Below, piece after piece: positions 1 to 21,056 of a stretch of 34,066 nucleotides of DNA. The position numbers were made by a program, and so were the translations under genes. Numbering within the stretch: the first letter of the stretch is position 1; every line of letters starts with the position of its first letter. The stretch is from Candidatus Bathyarchaeota archaeon. GTDB taxonomy: Archaea > Thermoproteota > Bathyarchaeia > Bathyarchaeales > DTEX01. The DNA is taken from assembly GCA_018396655.1 (NCBI GenBank), contig JAGTQF010000013.1, positions 1 to 34,066 of the forward strand, read 5' to 3'. Under the pieces are notes generated by a model that was not told the origin of the DNA, made no database searches, and was given only the letters and a program-made list of their open reading frames with translations.

Positions 1-1211
1 CTAGGATAATCTGTTTCAGTAGGCTCCTTTATTACCGGTGATTCGACATCAACCTTCACGGCAACATTCCCCATGTGGGGGCTATACATTTTGAATACAT
101 GGTATGTGGGCGTCAGAATAGTCTTCTCACCCCTAGTCAGACATATGCTCTGTAGAACATTCACGGCCTGGGCTAAGTTGGCAATTTTAACTTTTCTAGA
201 ATATTTTATGAATAGGTTTAGAACTGAAGCGGCTAATATAGCGTCTCTTAAAGTGTTCTGTTGATATAGCCCATTTTCGTTAGTTGCCTGCGGATGCCAA
301 ACACCCCACTCGTCAACCGCTATCCCTATATCCTTCCTCCCTTCAGAGAAAAAGTCAACTACAGCTATTGCCTGCTTAATTTGATACTCAAGATGTTGAA
401 CATCAAATAGCAAATTAAGGTATTGCTCATCAGTAAACTTCACATCGTCTCCATAGCGCTGCTGATTGCGAAAGAAATAGTAGTGTATAGATAAATAGTC
501 AACCAGATGGATGAAGTCCCTTAGGGCCTCCATAACCCTATAATTCCAATCTCTAGATATGTGTCCGCAAACTATGAGCTTAATTCTTGGGTCAGCCTGC
601 TTTAGGAATGTTGCGAATCTACGATACTCCCAGGCATAGTAGACTGGGTCGAATGAGCCGCCGCAGCCCCAATTCTCATTCCCAACACCCCAATAGATGA
701 CATTATATGGTTCGGGATGACCATTCTCAGCCCTAAGCCGCGCATATTTCGTATTTCCAACATAATTACAGTATTCAAGCCAAGCTAGTGCTTCGCTCGG
801 GCTTCCGGAACCAACATTCACACATATATATGGTTCAGCGCCTACAACCCTACATAATTTAATGAACTCGTCTGTTCCAAACTCATTTGATTCCTCACCG
901 CCCCACCAAATATTCGCTCTTCGAGGTCTAAGTTCCACGGGGCCTACGCCATCTTCCCAATGGTATGCATCTGCAAAGCATCCACCAGGCCACCTAATGA
1001 TTGGCGCTTTAATGGACTTAAAGGCTTGAATAACATCCCTCCTAAGGCCATTCTCATTTGGAATATTTGAATCCTTTCCAACCCAGATTCCAGGATAAAT
1101 GCATCTGCCCAGATGCTCAATGAAGTGGCCGAAAATCTTTGGGTCAACCACATCTATGTGCTCATAAACCCTAATTTTTAACGCATTCTTATGCAATATT
1201 CTCGCCCCCAA
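1..1211 (-). CDS. GH51 alpha-L-arabinofuranosidase, C-terminus beyond the window
   Basis: About 403 residues are visible of a family usually near 500; the reading frame is still open at base 1. The protein should release terminal alpha-L-arabinofuranose from arabinan or arabinoxylan. The family's N-terminal signature FIEHLGR is at residues 30-36. The acid/base glutamate is in WGVGNENWG (Glu179) and the nucleophile in VDEWGVW (Glu301), at positions matching characterised GH51 enzymes. No ATG exists at the 5' end of the frame; the upstream stop leaves TTG at 1211 (preceded by AAGGT) or TTG at 1196. No signal peptide is seen, so the enzyme is probably cytoplasmic and acts on imported oligosaccharides. 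The next gene upstream on the same strand is a sugar-acid type enolase-superfamily enzyme, consistent with pentose use. The family call is secure; the substrate is inferred. Confidence 0.9.
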   Translation of the reverse strand, partial: MGARILHKNALKIRVYEHIDVVDPKIFGHFIEHLGRCIYPGIWVGKDSNIPNENGLRRDVIQAFKSIKAPIIRWPGGCFADAYHWEDGVGPVELRPRRANIWWGGEESNEFGTDEFIKLCRVVGAEPYICVNVGSGSPSEALAWLEYCNYVGNTKYARLRAENGHPEPYNVIYWGVGNENWGCGGSFDPVYYAWEYRRFATFLKQADPRIKLIVCGHISRDWNYRVMEALRDFIHLVDYLSIHYYFFRNQQRYGDDVKFTDEQYLNLLFDVQHLEYQIKQAIAVVDFFSEGRKDIGIAVDEWGVWHPQATNENGLYQQNTLRDAILAASVLNLFIKYSRKVKIANLAQAVNVLQSICLTRGEKTILTPTYHVFKMYSPHMGNVAVKVDVESPVIKEPTETDYP

Positions 1212-13949: not shown

Positions 13950-15320
13950 TTACTCTTTTAGACCTCTTTCAAGCCTCTCTTGACGGGTCTTTTTTATGGC
14001 ATTTTCAATCTGCTCAATAGTTGTGCCAAGATAGTTTTTTGGGTCTAATGCTTCATCTATCTCTTTTTCAGTGAGCAGGCTCCTAACTGCTTCATTGCTT
14101 AGGAGGGCATCTCTGAATGAAATCTTCTCGGATATACTTTTAATTGTTAGTTGCCTTAGGAGTTCATGAGCATCTTGCCGGCTCATACCCTTCCTTGTTA
14201 AAGCTATCATAACGGCCTCCGACATTATTCGTCCCTCGGTAATATCAATGTTCCTTTGCATTCTATCCTCATCAACCTCAAGGTTCGAGAGGACCCATAT
14301 CATTAAATACAACATGTAGTCGACTAATATGCAAGCCTCTGGTATAGTGAATCTTTCAGCCGACGACTGCGTTAAATCCCTCTCATGCCATGTCGGAATA
14401 TTTTCTAGGGCTGGAATAACAAGACCCCTAACAACCTTCGCAAGCCCACATATTCTCTCGCATATCTCAGGATTACGTTTATGGGGCATTGTTGAACTGC
14501 CAACCTGCCTCTGCCTCTCAAACGGCTCAAAAACCTCAGCTATCTCAGTCCTCTGCAATTCCCTTATTTCAGTCGCGAACTTATCGAGAGTCGATGCTAT
14601 AATGGCCAGTAAACATATAAGTTCAGCATGCCTATCTCTCTGAATTATTTGGGTTGTAACCTCAGCATGCTTTAACCCAAGTCTCTTCATTACGAGCTCT
14701 TGTATTTTCAAAGCATTTGGACCCAGCCCCGCCTGTGTTCCAACGGCTCCAGTTATCTTGCCAACTAAGATTCGCTTTCTGCACTCTCTCAGTCTTTCTA
14801 TGTTCCTTGAGATTTCGCGCATCCAAACAGCCATCTTAAGCCCAAAAGTTATTGGTAGAGCATGCTGCCCATGTGTTCGCCCTATCATTATCGTGCTCTT
14901 ATAGCGCTCAGCAAGATTAAGCAGAATAAGCTCTAAATCGTTCAGACGCTGCTCAATTATGTCCAGGGCATCCCTAAGCTGAAGGGCCCTAGCCGTATCG
15001 ACAATATCGTAGCTTGTTATGCCCAAATGAACATATGCGCCGCTTGGACCGCAAACCTCGGCTAAAGCCTTAACTAAAGCCATAACATCATGCTTAATCT
15101 CCCTCTCTATTTCTTTCACACGGCTAACCTTCACGTATTTCGTTGAGGCCATTTCCATAATTTTTTCAGCGGCTTCCCTTGGAATCTCCCCAACCTCACT
15201 TTGAGCCCATGCTAAAGCAGCCTCAACATCAAGCATCCTCTGAATATAGTTCTCCTCCTCAAATACTCTGAGCATCTCCTGCGTTCCATATCGCCCAGTA
15301 TCGATTGGCAGAATGGGCAA
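13950..15320 (-). CDS. purB: Adenylosuccinate lyase
   Basis: PurB releases fumarate from SAICAR and from adenylosuccinate in purine synthesis. The fumarase/aspartase-superfamily signature GSSTMPHKRNPE is present with its mobile-loop serines. The N-terminal PIDTGRYGTQEM is typical of the family, and GRTHGQHALPITFG carries the catalytic His. The frame opens at ATG 15350, but a perfect GGAGGTG lies inside that extension, 8 bases before TTG 15320. I therefore take TTG 15320, giving 456 residues that begin PILPID as in homologues. It stands alone on this strand between the pseudogene and the divergent asparagine-synthetase-like gene. Confidence 0.93.
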   Translation of the reverse strand: MPILPIDTGRYGTQEMLRVFEEENYIQRMLDVEAALAWAQSEVGEIPREAAEKIMEMASTKYVKVSRVKEIEREIKHDVMALVKALAEVCGPSGAYVHLGITSYDIVDTARALQLRDALDIIEQRLNDLELILLNLAERYKSTIMIGRTHGQHALPITFGLKMAVWMREISRNIERLRECRKRILVGKITGAVGTQAGLGPNALKIQELVMKRLGLKHAEVTTQIIQRDRHAELICLLAIIASTLDKFATEIRELQRTEIAEVFEPFERQRQVGSSTMPHKRNPEICERICGLAKVVRGLVIPALENIPTWHERDLTQSSAERFTIPEACILVDYMLYLMIWVLSNLEVDEDRMQRNIDITEGRIMSEAVMIALTRKGMSRQDAHELLRQLTIKSISEKISFRDALLSNEAVRSLLTEKEIDEALDPKNYLGTTIEQIENAIKKTRQERLERGLKE

Positions 15321-15326
15321 TGCAAA

Positions 15327-15335
15327 TCCACCTCC
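15327..15335 (-). promoter_or_regulatory. Shine-Dalgarno site deciding the purB start
   Basis: The minus strand reads GGAGGTG here, 8 bases before TTG at 15320. It supports that TTG and not the in-frame ATG at 15350 as the initiation codon. Confidence 0.6.
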
Positions 15336-15485
15336 GGACGGATATCCCATCTGAATGCTTCAATTTGCACGACGAATAGATTTTTTCGCTTCAGAGTATA
15401 AAAATTAATTGCTTCCCGCAAATTTATTGTCCTAACACTCTTTAAATTTGGGAAGCTAAACTAGTATGATTTAGAGAGTCTCGTA

Positions 15486-16973
15486 ATGGGCGCTTTAATA
15501 TCGGTTATATCTAGGCATGGAAAAAATGTGATTCCGGAAATCGTCAAAATGCTTAATGTCCTGAAGCATAGGGGTAAGGATGCTTATGGAATAGCAACGG
15601 ATTCTATGCTGACTATCGCAAGAAGCATTGATGATTTACGCGAACTATTAAACGTCAAGTCTGATATCGCATTAGGATATAATTTTAGCGCAGTTCTTCC
15701 AAGCGACACCCCACAACCCATCGAAGCTGGCAACTTTAAAGTCGCCTTCACCGGAAGATTTTTCTCATCAGAAGATAGTGATGCGGATACTATCACCAAT
15801 CTATTGGAGCGTTTAAATGACGCAAGGGAGGCTGCGGAGCACGCCATTAACGAGATAAACGGCTCATTCTCATTTGTAATCCTTGATGGTCACAGATTAA
15901 TTGTTGGGAGAGAGCCGCTCGGCGCGACTCCGCTCTATTTAGGTGTTAATGAGCAAATTTATGCATTAGCCTCAGAGCGAAAAGCGCTATGGTTCATAGG
16001 AATAAAAGATGAGCAGATAAAATCCTTCCCTCCGGGAAATTTAGCTGAGATTACAAGGGATGGCATAGTAATTCGGCCAGTAAAAATTTTGTATAGACCT
16101 AAAATAGAACCTATTAGTGAGGAGGAAGCTATCCGAAGATTACACGCGATGCTATTGGATTCAATTAAGAGAAAGACAATAAATCTTGGAAGATTTTCTA
16201 TAGCTTTTTCCGGGGGCTTAGATAGTGCTATAATTGCCTCCCTAGCGCTGGAGATTGGTAAGAAGCCACTATTAATCTCAGTTGGTCTCGAAGATTCTGA
16301 GGAGCTAAAGTATGCCGAGATGATAGCCGATGAGGTTGGTTTACCAATTAAAGCCGAAGCATACACCCTAAGGGATGTTGAGGAGACGTTACCTAGAGTT
16401 TTATGGTTGATTGAGGAAGATAATGCCTTGAAAGCATCAATATATATCCCAGTATTCTGGATCGCTAACATATCTTCAAAGATGGACTTTAATGTTATGC
16501 TTTCAGGGCAAGGAAGCGATGAGATATTCGCTGGCTACCACAAGTATCTTAGGGAATATTGTCGGTCCGGGGGAAATATTGAGCAAACCCTCTATAATGA
16601 TGTGCTCACCTTACATGAAAGTAGCCTAGAACCTGAAGACAAGATTTGCTCCTTTAATGGTGTGGAAGTCAGATTTCCCTATGTGGATTACAGTTTAGTG
16701 TCTTTTGCACTTAGCATACCCACAAGAATGAAGATAGAGTCCGAGGGGGATTCTTTGAGAAAAAGGGTGCTTAGACATCTGGCTAAATATATTGGTCTGC
16801 CCCAGGAGATTTATCTTAGACCGAAGAAGGCGATTCAATATGGGACTGGTGTAAGTAAAGCGCTTAAAAAGATAGCAAGTAGAAAAGGATTAAATTTGCA
16901 GAAATTTATTAGCCAGATGTTTCAGAAGATTGAATGGTTTAAAAATGGTGACTGCAATAATATACTCGCCTAA
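15486..16973 (+). CDS. Asparagine synthetase-like protein without the glutaminase cysteine
   Basis: The 495 residues align with class B asparagine synthetases: an N-terminal Ntn glutaminase-like domain (about 1-200), then an ATP-pyrophosphatase synthetase domain with the PP-loop SGGLDSA at 242-248, SGQGSDEIFAGY, VEVRFPYVD and RPKKAIQYGTGV. The catalytic Cys2 of the glutaminase is absent; the protein begins MGALISV where active enzymes begin MCG. No alternative upstream start could supply it. The glutaminase half should therefore be dead, leaving an ammonia-dependent synthetase or an amide ligase for another carboxylate. The stop overlaps the start of the following deacetylase-family gene by 29 bases, so the two are probably made together. 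Asparagine synthesis itself is uncertain. Confidence 0.85.
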   Translation: MGALISVISRHGKNVIPEIVKMLNVLKHRGKDAYGIATDSMLTIARSIDDLRELLNVKSDIALGYNFSAVLPSDTPQPIEAGNFKVAFTGRFFSSEDSDADTITNLLERLNDAREAAEHAINEINGSFSFVILDGHRLIVGREPLGATPLYLGVNEQIYALASERKALWFIGIKDEQIKSFPPGNLAEITRDGIVIRPVKILYRPKIEPISEEEAIRRLHAMLLDSIKRKTINLGRFSIAFSGGLDSAIIASLALEIGKKPLLISVGLEDSEELKYAEMIADEVGLPIKAEAYTLRDVEETLPRVLWLIEEDNALKASIYIPVFWIANISSKMDFNVMLSGQGSDEIFAGYHKYLREYCRSGGNIEQTLYNDVLTLHESSLEPEDKICSFNGVEVRFPYVDYSLVSFALSIPTRMKIESEGDSLRKRVLRHLAKYIGLPQEIYLRPKKAIQYGTGVSKALKKIASRKGLNLQKFISQMFQKIEWFKNGDCNNILA

Positions 16974-18000
16974 ATGCTTAGAACATAAAACTGGAAACCA
17001 GCACCCCGAGAGACCTCAACGCTTAATGGCAATAATGGATGGCATAGAAAAAAGCGGCTTACTCAACAACAATAATATCAGAATGGTTAGACCCAAGCCT
17101 GCCAGCATAGAGAATCTAAAACTTGTTCATGAAAGCGAGTATATAGAGAGAGTTAAATCTATATGTGAATCTGGAGGTGGATTATTGGATGAGGAGACGC
17201 AGGTTTCAAGAGAAAGCTTCGAAGCTGCGAGGGTGGCTGTTGGGGGAGCTTTAGAAGCTGTTAGGGGCGTAATATCTGGTGAATTCGCTAATGCATTCGC
17301 GATAATTAGACCTCCAGGCCATCATGCTGGGCCAGCCCGCTCGGAGGGCTTCTGTATATTCAATAATGCTGCTATAGCAGCTAAATATCTCATTAGAGAA
17401 TGGGGATTAAAAAGAATAATTATTCTCGATATAGACGCCCACCATGGAAATGGAACCCAAGAGATCTTTTACGAGGATAGCAGCGTGCTCTACACAAGTA
17501 TACATGAGGAGCCAATCGAGTTTCCTAGGACTGGCTTCATCTGGGAGGTTGGTGAAGGAGAAGGAAGAGGATACACCATTAACATTCCACTTCCATACGG
17601 ATCGGGGGATCCCTCATTTTGGAAGTCGCTAAAGACTATTGTTTTGCCGATAGCCGCACAATATAAGCCGCAGTTCATGCTGGTTTCAGTGGGCTTTGAT
17701 GGTTACTATAGGGATTATATTGCCGACCTATCCTTATCTGCCTACATATACCCGAGAATATTCCAATTAATCCTTGATTTTGCACGTGGAGTGTGCAATG
17801 GAAGAATGGCTGCTATTCTCGAGGGTGGATATAATATATGGCTTCTTAAGAGAGTGGTTGCCGCATGCGTGGCAAAGATGGCTGGACTAACAATTAAGAT
17901 TAAGGATAAAAGCCCACCAATAAATTTGCTAGCTCAAAAGGAGGCTGAAAAAGTTATCAGGAATGTTAGAAGGATTCAGTCTAGATACTGGTCGCTGTAA
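16945..18000 (+). CDS. Histone deacetylase family amidohydrolase (AcuC/HDAC-like)
   Basis: This zinc-dependent deacetylase of 351 residues starts at ATG 16945, inside the end of the upstream gene. It has the whole class I/II HDAC core: HPERPQR at 20-26, the charge-relay pair His126-His127 in RPPGHHAG, zinc ligands Asp164 and His166 in DIDAHHGNGT, a third Asp in SVGFDGY, and the transition-state Tyr in LEGGYN. Archaeal members may deacetylate proteins, acetylpolyamines or other small amides. The chromatin protein Alba is encoded about 12 kb away and is a conceivable but unproven target. Tight coupling to an amide-forming AsnB relative suggests a shared small-molecule or protein substrate. Confidence 0.9.
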   Translation: MVTAIIYSPKCLEHKTGNQHPERPQRLMAIMDGIEKSGLLNNNNIRMVRPKPASIENLKLVHESEYIERVKSICESGGGLLDEETQVSRESFEAARVAVGGALEAVRGVISGEFANAFAIIRPPGHHAGPARSEGFCIFNNAAIAAKYLIREWGLKRIIILDIDAHHGNGTQEIFYEDSSVLYTSIHEEPIEFPRTGFIWEVGEGEGRGYTINIPLPYGSGDPSFWKSLKTIVLPIAAQYKPQFMLVSVGFDGYYRDYIADLSLSAYIYPRIFQLILDFARGVCNGRMAAILEGGYNIWLLKRVVAACVAKMAGLTIKIKDKSPPINLLAQKEAEKVIRNVRRIQSRYWSL

Positions 18001-18016
18001 GGAGACTATAAAAAGT

Positions 18017-18202
18017 TCACTCCTCAATGACAGTTATAGCACCATTAGGACACTGGCTCTCACATGCTCTACAAACGAGACATGCATCAACATTAACAGC
18101 CACAGACTTATCATTTTTGAGCTCATAGACCCCTGAGGGACACACATCAACGCATGTTCCGCAACCAGTGCATTTCTCAAGATCTATTTCTATTCTAACC
18201 AC
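18017..18202 (-). CDS. Ferredoxin with two [4Fe-4S] clusters
   Basis: This 61-residue electron carrier has two complete cluster motifs, CTGCGTCVDVCP and CLVCRACESQCP, separated by about 18 residues. The frame extends upstream to TTG 18229, but GGAGGT sits 8 bases before GTG 18202 and decides the start; the product then begins VRIEIDLEKC, as bacterial-type ferredoxins do. It ends 16 bases from the convergent deacetylase gene. Its partner enzyme is not evident; it is the last gene of the minus-strand run and about 100 bases downstream of a TrmB regulator. Confidence 0.9.
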   Translation of the reverse strand: MVRIEIDLEKCTGCGTCVDVCPSGVYELKNDKSVAVNVDACLVCRACESQCPNGAITVIEE

Positions 18203-18309
18203 TTTAGGATACCTCCATTTGAATTTCAAGTAGAATGATGGAGAGGAATAAAAGGTTTTTGGAGTTAAAAGAGTTAAGTGGTAGAGAAAAGGCTATTCAG
18301 CATTCCATC

Positions 18310-19169: not shown

Positions 19170-20957
19170 TTACATGATTTCTTCTTTAAGCCTTAAGAGA
19201 GTATCATCTATCATGTTTTCTGCCTCTTTTCTTCTGCGCTCGTATTCATTTATAAGATTACGGCGAGATTCGGCAGATATTTCTCCACGGGCATATCTGG
19301 CTTCAACCTCAGCGATGCTTCTTTTCAGCGCCATAATATTTGCGCTGGCAGCCTCCAGCCTTCTTAGCATATCCATATAGCGCCCACCAATGGCTTCAAT
19401 CTCCCTTCGGAGAGTAGCGATACTATTTTGAGTATTAGAGAGGCGTTCCTCTAAAAGTCTCCTCTGCAGCATGTATTGGCGCCTCGAAATCTTGCCCTTC
19501 CTGGACTGCTCCTCCAGATACTCTATTTCAGACATTAGGCGCATCCTTTCCTCATAAGACTCAATAAACTTTCTTATGGTTTCCATCGGAACCAATGTTG
19601 ATGTTGCAGCCCTACCTCCACCCACATATTTAGCGGTTACTACGGCTAAGCTTATTATGCCCGCTAGGACACTGATAGACAGCGTTGGTCTAAGGGTGGC
19701 CCACAAAATCATATATTGATATTTGACGCTTAAATTCAGTCTCTGATATCTTGTAACCCTATAATACTCGACGACCATCTTCTCTTGGAATAGACCCAGC
19801 CTACTAAATGTTATATTCTCACGATTCTCTTGAACGAAGCCGGCACCCTCAGGCAAAATTACTGTAATTGTCATCTTTTTTATAATCCACTCATCTGGCT
19901 TTGTGATATTAATGTTCAATATGTAGTCCTGCCATCCGCCTCTAATAATATATCTCCAGAATGGCAGCGTGTAGGATACTGCTAATCTGCCACCCCTACT
20001 CTCCTTAATTTTCTCGCCTAAGGTAACCTCAATTGATGTAAAATCATCCTTCTCCATCACATAGATTTCGTTCTTCCCATACTGACCATAAGCGTCGTAA
20101 ACTGATATATCCGATGCTCCAGCCGGAAGATTAAGCGTTATATCGCCTACATTTATCATAGGCATTATCTCGTAGAAGTCGGTTACGGTTATCTTGCCCC
20201 AAACGTCAACCAGTATCTCCCTTCTCATTTCCAGAAACTTTAACAGCTTGAATGTTGTGCTTGAGAATTTAGCCCATGATGAGAAGTTTGCATATGGTGT
20301 AAGTGGGCTAGTAAAGTTATTTATGATTCTATGGTCGCTTGTCTTATTAATGAAGACCTCCCTTGGATAATCGTTTTGCGAGACTGAGGAAGCGGGTGGA
20401 AAAATAACGGTAACATTACAGTAGATGGCTTCCTCTCTAAGGCTAGGATACAATGGGAAAATAGCGTGAAAAACACTCTTACTCTCGCTTCTAACCAGCT
20501 CGGAGAAAACGTATGTCACCGTAAAATTGTACGTTCCACTATTAGCCAGCATAATTGGTTCAGAGAAGATTATTCCCAGCCACAGGAAATTCTCATCATC
20601 CTCTAAAACTTTTATTGGCAAATCTCCTTTAGCATCACGGGCAGAATAGTAAACTAAGATATCACTGTAGTTTCTTGGCAAGCCAACAGTATAACCACCT
20701 ATAATACCTACGACACTCATAGAGGTTTGAGTAAACTCACTTTCAGACATATTCCATGAGAGAATAAAAGTGTCGTTAATCATGATGTATCCGCCGCTGA
20801 GAAAACTTATCTTCCTTTCCACGCCAACCGATAAATTCTTTTCGCCCACATTATATTGGGTGGAGTCGTTTTCCGCTATAACGCTTCCGAGGAGACAGAG
20901 GGGGATTAGGACAATTAGGAGCGAGCGGACCAGTAAATACTTACTCTTCAGCTTCAA
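19170..20957 (-). CDS. Type I membrane protein resembling ribophorin I (OST1)
   Basis: The protein has a signal peptide (about 1-28, ending SVIA), an ectodomain of about 395 residues rich in N-x-S/T sequons, one membrane span at about 425-445, and a basic helical or coiled-coil tail of 150 residues. Human ribophorin I, 607 residues, has the same layout and tail length. Local matches to it, from memory, include REILVDVWGKITV (ribophorin VIEVSHWGNIAV), LPAGASDISVYDAYG (LPAAAQDVYYRDEIG) and MTITVILPEGA (LTVKIILPEGA), in the same order before the span. Ribophorin I is an oligosaccharyltransferase subunit whose cytosolic helices touch the ribosome. TTG 20957 lies 9 bases after GGAG; TTG 20966 is the other choice. 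It follows DUF2095 in a run headed by eS1. The homology is my inference. Confidence 0.75.
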   Translation of the reverse strand: MKLKSKYLLVRSLLIVLIPLCLLGSVIAENDSTQYNVGEKNLSVGVERKISFLSGGYIMINDTFILSWNMSESEFTQTSMSVVGIIGGYTVGLPRNYSDILVYYSARDAKGDLPIKVLEDDENFLWLGIIFSEPIMLANSGTYNFTVTYVFSELVRSESKSVFHAIFPLYPSLREEAIYCNVTVIFPPASSVSQNDYPREVFINKTSDHRIINNFTSPLTPYANFSSWAKFSSTTFKLLKFLEMRREILVDVWGKITVTDFYEIMPMINVGDITLNLPAGASDISVYDAYGQYGKNEIYVMEKDDFTSIEVTLGEKIKESRGGRLAVSYTLPFWRYIIRGGWQDYILNINITKPDEWIIKKMTITVILPEGAGFVQENRENITFSRLGLFQEKMVVEYYRVTRYQRLNLSVKYQYMILWATLRPTLSISVLAGIISLAVVTAKYVGGGRAATSTLVPMETIRKFIESYEERMRLMSEIEYLEEQSRKGKISRRQYMLQRRLLEERLSNTQNSIATLRREIEAIGGRYMDMLRRLEAASANIMALKRSIAEVEARYARGEISAESRRNLINEYERRRKEAENMIDDTLLRLKEEIM

Positions 20958-21056
20958 CCTATTCAACTCCTATTCATATTATTGCTTAAGGATTACGATT
21001 TTAGAGAATATGTAGCGCTTTAAACTTAAAAAATATTTTCTATAAATCAATTACTA

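Follow-up and report, generated by a model that had tools for sequence, protein, structure and literature searches.

An AsnB-like protein with a predicted dead glutaminase domain is encoded beside an HDAC-family enzyme in several families of one archaeal order

A two-gene unit of a Bathyarchaeota genome encodes an AsnB-like protein (AsnB490) whose glutaminase domain is predicted to be dead, followed directly by a zinc enzyme of the histone deacetylase (HDAC) family. We studied it in the window, the whole 34,066-nucleotide stretch analysed here (assembly GCA_018396655.1, contig JAGTQF010000013.1, our contig C5), which has archaeal gene content and comes from a 1.32 Mb genome, 94% complete, in 48 contigs. 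Both genes lie on the plus strand, flanked by purB and a ferredoxin gene (Table 1). On the reading that we find most likely, and to which we give an even chance, the pair comprises an AsnB-type ligase that uses ammonia or an amine together with a carboxylate other than aspartate, loosely coupled to a lysine-type deacylase. A first-pass annotation had drawn attention to the pair; its observation is confirmed and is more general than the single window showed, and its interpretation is partly supported. Below, G, L and f numbers denote genomes, loci and families, respectively.

Loss of the glutaminase residues is shared across the class. The AsnB-like protein begins MGALISV (ATG at 15486, stop codon ending at 16973), as annotated, with coordinates, frames and motifs all holding. 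Across 57 distinct homologues from the class, close relatives included, residue 2 is Gly in 47, Lys in six, Ser in two, Arg in one and Asn in one, and never Cys. The glutamine pocket has gone as well. With residues numbered by E. coli AsnB sequence position counted from Cys1, Arg49 is found in none of the 57 (all have a gap there), Asn74 in none, Glu76 in one, Asp98 in 18 and Gly75 in all 57; at the Cys1, Arg49, Asn74 and Glu76 positions the window protein has G2, a gap, T89 and R91. Homologue starts were picked nearest the window-aligned position, and the residue 2 count and gene boundaries lean on this choice; the counts for Arg49, Asn74 and Glu76 are independent of it. The alignment is sound because the same residues are kept in Cys-type AsnBs of the class: a search of 12 loci recovered nine, which were aligned together with the homologues, and Arg49, Asn74, Glu76 and Asp98 are each present in 9/9 and Cys1 in 8/9, the ninth row having no letter there. 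A sequencing error at codon 2 was ruled out, as Cys is absent from every homologue and Arg49, Asn74 and Glu76 are lost too. By these alignments the glutaminase is dead, as the annotation had proposed, and not through a sequencing error.

ATP chemistry is probably kept, as judged from residue conservation. The invariant residues of the PP-loop and the equivalents of D351, E352 and K449 are unchanged in all 57 homologues, bearing out the annotated intact ATP-pyrophosphatase site. Pfam profiles match the protein at 159.9 bits for PF00733 (cut-off 21) and 45 bits for PF13537 (GATase_7). A single AlphaFold model, built from an alignment of 25 rows, has a mean pLDDT of 93.3 and superposes on E. coli AsnB (1ct9) through both domains (Z 38.6, root-mean-square deviation 2.5 over 440 residues); according to this model the N-terminal domain is retained as a fold. 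The protein might instead be a regulatory pseudoenzyme, catalysing nothing and sensing a nucleotide or some metabolite; a dead glutaminase beside an altered synthetase pocket would suit such a role. The invariance of the tested ATP and pyrophosphate residues argues against this, as does mean identity, higher in the C-terminal domain (47.5%) than in the N-terminal one (37.9%), and we consider a pseudoenzyme very improbable.

The AsnB-like protein is probably not an asparagine synthetase, because the residues that would hold the substrate acid have changed. At the position of Glu348, 49 of the 57 homologues have Gln, two Glu and one Asp; Thr321 and Arg324 occur in none (the window has L315 and S318), and Asp384 is replaced by Asn in 46. 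A study of human asparagine synthetase (ASNS; PMC6748925) describes E364Q, at the residue equivalent to Glu348, as inactive with aspartate, ATP and NH4Cl, and T336I as nearly abolishing glutamine-dependent activity; our alignment places T336 at Thr321. The protein also falls short of the AsnB model TIGR01536 (207.9 bits against a cut-off of 267.1). Other named activities were tried and rejected: lasso peptide cyclase (NF033535) scores 68.6 bits against a cut-off of 525, and the N-acetylglutaminylglutamine and XrtA amidotransferases score far under theirs.

A competing explanation holds that the protein is an ammonia-dependent asparagine synthetase whose glutaminase was lost in an ammonia-rich habitat, with the HDAC gene a bystander. 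Asparagine supply bears on this directly. AsnB-like matches at E <= 1e-20 occur in 114 of 120 good genomes of the class, a few of these matches being distant. The window genome encodes GatB (586.5 bits, cut-off 314.8) and an aspartate--tRNA(Asn) ligase match (587 bits) and has no AsnRS over cut-off, so its Asn-tRNA can form by transamidation without an AsnB-like enzyme. Among 82 genomes (at least 95% complete, plus the 94% complete window genome), the AsnB-like gene is kept in 15/17 with GatB and without AsnRS, 50/50 with AsnRS and without GatB, 6/9 with both and 6/6 with neither. Its retention where AsnRS is missing counts against a pure asparagine role.

Several observations weigh the other way, against a non-aspartate substrate. 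The pocket is less securely controlled than the glutaminase, since AsnBs whose function is unproven differ at these residues: of the nine Cys-type proteins, only four keep Thr321 and four Arg324, so that these two residues are possibly not diagnostic, and position 348 is Glu in four, Asp in three, Gln in one and Leu in one. The AsnB-like homologue is lost only from genomes with GatB (5/26, against 0/56 without GatB over cut-off; Fisher p 0.0024, uncorrected for kinship), which is what an asparagine role would predict. The absent set (G164, G178, G211, G028 and G034) was chosen by hand at E above about 1e-45, and G211 has a family-profile match of 3.4e-79; moving it gives 4/26 absent (one-tailed p about 0.009) and 16/17 retention with GatB and without AsnRS. 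AsnA (PF03590) was found in 0/82 genomes, the window genome has no other PF00733 protein that we found, and the predicted fold is closest to E. coli AsnB. In one genome (G174), with AsnRS, no GatB over cut-off and no further AsnRS-type match, no candidate asparagine synthetase other than the AsnB-like protein was seen. Set against these points, some GatB-less genomes carry truncated AsnRS paralogues (for example in G057:C73) that match asparagine synthetase A models below cut-off. We weigh the Gln at position 348 and the uniform loss of Thr321 and Arg324 above the GatB pattern, which leaves asparagine synthesis an unlikely, though far from negligible, role. Family membership would readily label such proteins asparagine synthetases, and the residue evidence probably points to another substrate; if so, a ligase present in nearly all members of a large archaeal class would be left without a known job.

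The downstream gene encodes a complete HDAC-type enzyme that is probably a lysine-type deacylase. Its open reading frame, with the protein read from 16948, matches PF00850 at 313.9 bits (cut-off 27.9), and the zinc ligands and catalytic Tyr that had been annotated as intact are invariant in 21/21 aligned rows. The start that aligns with relatives is ATG 16945, with GTG 16948 and TTG 16930 also in frame; ATG 16945 reproduces the annotated 29-base overlap exactly. The top PDB sequence matches are HDAC6 and other class II-type HDACs, including bacterial HDAC-like amidohydrolases, and HDAC10 is matched too. Polyamine deacetylases of the HDAC10/APAH type carry a Glu gatekeeper at the position of the Leu in the DPL motif of HDAC6. 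The window enzyme has Ile there, and the 21 rows comprise Ile or Val in 18, Leu in one and Tyr in two, a distribution that does not favour polyamine deacetylation. The window genome has two HDAC-family genes, the second cut by a contig end, and one histone-fold (PF00808) gene; a test for co-occurring histones was uninformative, as PF00808 is matched in 124/128 genomes.

Adjacency of the two genes is old and far above chance. The HDAC gene lies directly downstream of the AsnB-like gene, on the same strand and in a single gene order, in at least 33 of 128 genomes (at least 90% complete), a lower bound tallied from the 39 AsnB and 37 HDAC rows listed. All 33 belong to the 93 genomes of the window's order, where linked HDACs are 47-68% identical to that of the window through several families. 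The gene-neighbourhood comparison that the annotation had proposed thus finds the pair in several families of one order, and also in the distant family f47 described below. In a tree of 43 HDACs, all 17 linked proteins fall in one 23-row group alongside six unlinked rows. In four further genomes (G048, G050, G051 and G052) some 32-39 kb separate the AsnB-like gene from an HDAC gene upstream of it on the same strand, and G210 (L256) has, one gene upstream, a 246-residue HDAC from another subgroup. We found no report of an archaeal AsnB-HDAC pair in the open-licence PubMed Central literature, as judged by titles and abstract openings.

The pair is dissociable, which weakens any functional link and weighs against the coupling that we propose. 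In three genomes of the window's family (G178, G164 and G163; L160, L161 and L169) the AsnB-like gene is gone and purB and the HDAC gene are adjacent. Conversely, the AsnB-like gene stands at the locus without the HDAC gene in G171, G040, G041, G134 and others, and in 12 genomes of the order that carry an AsnB-like gene PF00850 matches nothing. These cases do not support an obligatory form of the joint pathway for which the annotation had suggested a modified amino acid, polyamine or peptide as possible product. The fixed stoichiometry that it read from the overlap is not supported either, as the boundary ranges from -44 to +6 across 25 linked loci (alternative starts give +13 in L059). The two enzymes may serve unrelated processes, their co-location reflecting shared expression near housekeeping genes (purB and the GINS-MCM-Hel308 genes) and slow rearrangement. 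This explanation, compatible with the ligase part of our proposal, draws on the persistence of each gene without the other, on AsnB-like genes that follow Hel308 without an HDAC gene in outgroups, and on HDAC relatives in other outgroup contexts, such as L159:2321-7863, where one lies between a multi-OB-fold protein and an Lhr-type helicase. Adjacency held across several families at the HDAC identities given above, and again in f47, tells against it, and we regard it as a serious contender that falls somewhat short of an even chance. As a separate observation, purB adjoins the AsnB-like gene in Methanoculleus (L126:6134-8693) and lies near it in a Nitrososphaeria metagenome-assembled genome (MAG; L078:5350-9314), so the association with purB extends beyond the class.

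In outgroup families and in one distant lineage the AsnB-like gene sits beside replication genes. It begins 5-15 bases after Hel308, without an HDAC gene, in five outgroup loci (L041, L066, L067, L069 and L071), with MCM and GINS upstream of Hel308 in the first four and Hel308 alone in L071; Pfam confirms GINS, MCM and a Hel308-type helicase in L041. Family f47, two genomes outside the class in a distant lineage of the phylum, has a contiguous GINS-MCM-Hel308-AsnB-HDAC array, with gaps in L245 of 4, 8, 48 and 39 bases in order. The f47 AsnB lacks Cys2 in L245; in L246 the called open reading frame starts MCMIV, most likely an upstream start, since from the following Met onwards the protein agrees with L245. 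The f47 HDACs, in a tree without the long row L174_4530 that the 43-HDAC tree included, join a supported 30-row group (98/93) of linked HDACs and five unlinked class-level ones, lying nearest the latter (87/85), and the f47 AsnBs cluster with most class proteins (88/58). These positions are unsure because in both trees the f47 sequences sit on long branches and are compositionally unusual. The linkage may be ancient and single, may have spread by transfer or may have arisen twice. No HDAC gene was found in the maps of 12 other outside-class loci (L237-L244 and L247-L250). Word searches of two papers, PMC2643942, on archaeal replication-gene context (asparagine, AsnB, deacetylase), and PMC4390880 (asparagine synth-, AsnB, deacetylase), gave no hits.

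Other arrangements were seen in passing. In L255:871-8651 GINS, MCM, Hel308, purB and an AsnB-like gene are co-directional, the last two separated by 4 bases. In L242-L244 (family f33) the AsnB-like gene lies near PCNA-like and ESCRT-III/CdvB-like genes, named by eye. A conserved protein of 136-150 residues is encoded between Hel308 and the AsnB-like gene in L062, L063, L064, L065 and L068, although no Hel308 was called upstream in L062; the L063 member, when searched, had no Pfam match.

The replication-gene arrays invite a bolder reading, in which GINS-MCM-Hel308-AsnB-HDAC forms an old replication-linked module. In it the AsnB-like protein would use ATP to write an amide onto a target, either a protein of the chromatin or replisome or a small effector, and the HDAC would be the lysine deacylase that matches it. 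We rate this a long shot. If true, the writer/deacylase module would represent an unrecognised system for modifying chromatin or the replication fork in archaea. The presence of replication genes upstream in several lineages and of the HDAC gene downstream in others is in itself a lead on archaeal HDAC function.

We propose a more modest scheme. The AsnB-like protein belongs to an archaeal AsnB-type ligase subfamily whose hallmarks are GQG(S/A)DE and KKAxQYxTG. With ATP bound at its SGGxDS loop, it would activate a carboxylate by adenylation, probably not that of aspartate given the changed pocket, with release of pyrophosphate, and would then transfer the acyl moiety to a small amine or to ammonia in free form, a nitrogen donor suggested because the Ntn domain cannot hydrolyse glutamine and would serve as a scaffold. 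The complete HDAC-type zinc hydrolase would act as a lysine-type deacylase. In one order the two genes would form an operon, perhaps derived from an old arrangement beside replication genes, and the enzymes would take part in a related but separable process.

Table 1. Features of the AsnB-HDAC locus and of the f47 arrays. Coordinates are window positions unless a locus is named; HDAC residues are counted from 16948.
Feature	Coordinates	Strand	Remarks
AsnB-like gene (AsnB490), 495 residues	15486..16973	+	open reading frame; PF00733/PF13537; structure model
Predicted dead Ntn glutaminase domain	residues ~1-200	+	AsnB-like protein
Codon 2, Gly at catalytic Cys1 position of glutamine-dependent AsnB	15489..15491	+	Cys in 0/57 homologues
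Residues 89-91, TGR, at NGE glutamine-binding motif	15750..15758	+	relatives EGR 35/57, DGR 15/57
ATP-pyrophosphatase/synthetase domain	residues ~212-480	+	AsnB-like protein
PP-loop SGGLDS, residues 242-247 (FSGGLDS 241-247)	16209..16226	+	S, G, G, D, S invariant 57/57
GQGSDE, residues 341-346	16506..16523	+	Gln342 at E. coli Glu348 / human Glu364; Gln 49/57
KKAIQY family signature, residues 447-452	16824..16841	+	Lys447 = E. coli Lys449; K447, A449, Y452 57/57
Overlap of AsnB-like and HDAC genes, 29 bases	16945..16973	+	exactly 29 with ATG 16945
HDAC-family Zn-dependent deacylase gene, 351 residues from ATG 16945	16945..18000	+	PF00850
Catalytic His dyad H125-H126	17320..17325	+	invariant 21/21 rows
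Zinc ligands Asp163 and His165 (DAH)	17434..17442	+	invariant 21/21 rows
Zinc ligand Asp251	17698..17700	+	invariant 21/21 rows
Catalytic Tyr295 of LEGGY	17830..17832	+	invariant 21/21 rows
purB	13950-15350	-	divergent neighbour of the pair
Ferredoxin gene	18017-18229	-	convergent neighbour, downstream of HDAC gene
GINS-MCM-Hel308-AsnB-HDAC arrays of f47	L245:6120-13466; L246:6468-15010		genes named by BLAST clustering

Further features of the window and of PF00733 proteins were noted on the side. The window encodes at 19170-20966 (minus strand) a 598-residue protein with a weak Ribophorin I match (PF04597, 28 bits, cut-off 25); 24 of the 41 loci mapped first contain a homologue of it. Another PF00733 family, of about 310-320 residues with a PP-loop and a zinc-ribbon-like C-terminus, occurs in L177, L189, L180, L185 and L186; it adjoins another PP-loop protein, and L177, L186 and L189 also have nucleotidyltransferase-like and CobS-like genes (labels by eye). 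A second, divergent AsnB-like copy from the window's genus (L039, G166:C23) clusters with another family, by transfer or contamination.

Relatives of the AsnB-like protein reach beyond the class and suggest how it arose. A wider homologue scan of genome contigs found 15 archaeal loci among the best 80 listed, a set from which window-near records are possibly missing. The relatives (in Methanoculleus, Methanomassiliicoccales, Archaeoglobaceae and other MAGs) mostly carry GQGADE and KKAxQYGSG signatures; of the 15 among the matches listed, 12 have Gln at position 348 and none has Thr321 or Arg324. Cys1 is kept in Nitrososphaera and ANME-1 MAG relatives and in f57 genomes, and the f57 proteins also read GQGADE. 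Glutamine use may thus be ancestral in the GQGADE/KKAxQY family, and a likely history, from these motifs, starts from a ligase that used glutamine and acted on an acid other than aspartate, the glutaminase being lost afterwards.

The AsnB-like protein shares with E. coli AsnB and human ASNS the two-domain fold (Z 38.6 and 36.0), the PP-loop and the D351, E352 and K449 equivalents, but lacks Cys1, R49, N74, E76, Thr321 and Arg324 and has Gln in place of Glu348. The archaeal GQGADE relatives differ from it in that several are short proteins whose N-terminal domain is slight or missing. The HDAC resembles class II-type HDACs in its complete zinc site and catalytic Tyr, but it is archaeal, adjoins an AsnB-like gene and, like several relatives, ends in a (Y/F)WS(L/I) tail. 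Beta-lactam and carbapenam synthetases (1jgt and 1q15) are AsnB-fold ligases without a working glutaminase, in which a Tyr-Glu dyad marks the acceptor site. The window protein shares their fold (Z 34.2 and 31.2), though at a low 18-21% identity, and their combination of a dead Ntn domain with a working synthetase domain offers the closest precedent for its possible mode of action.

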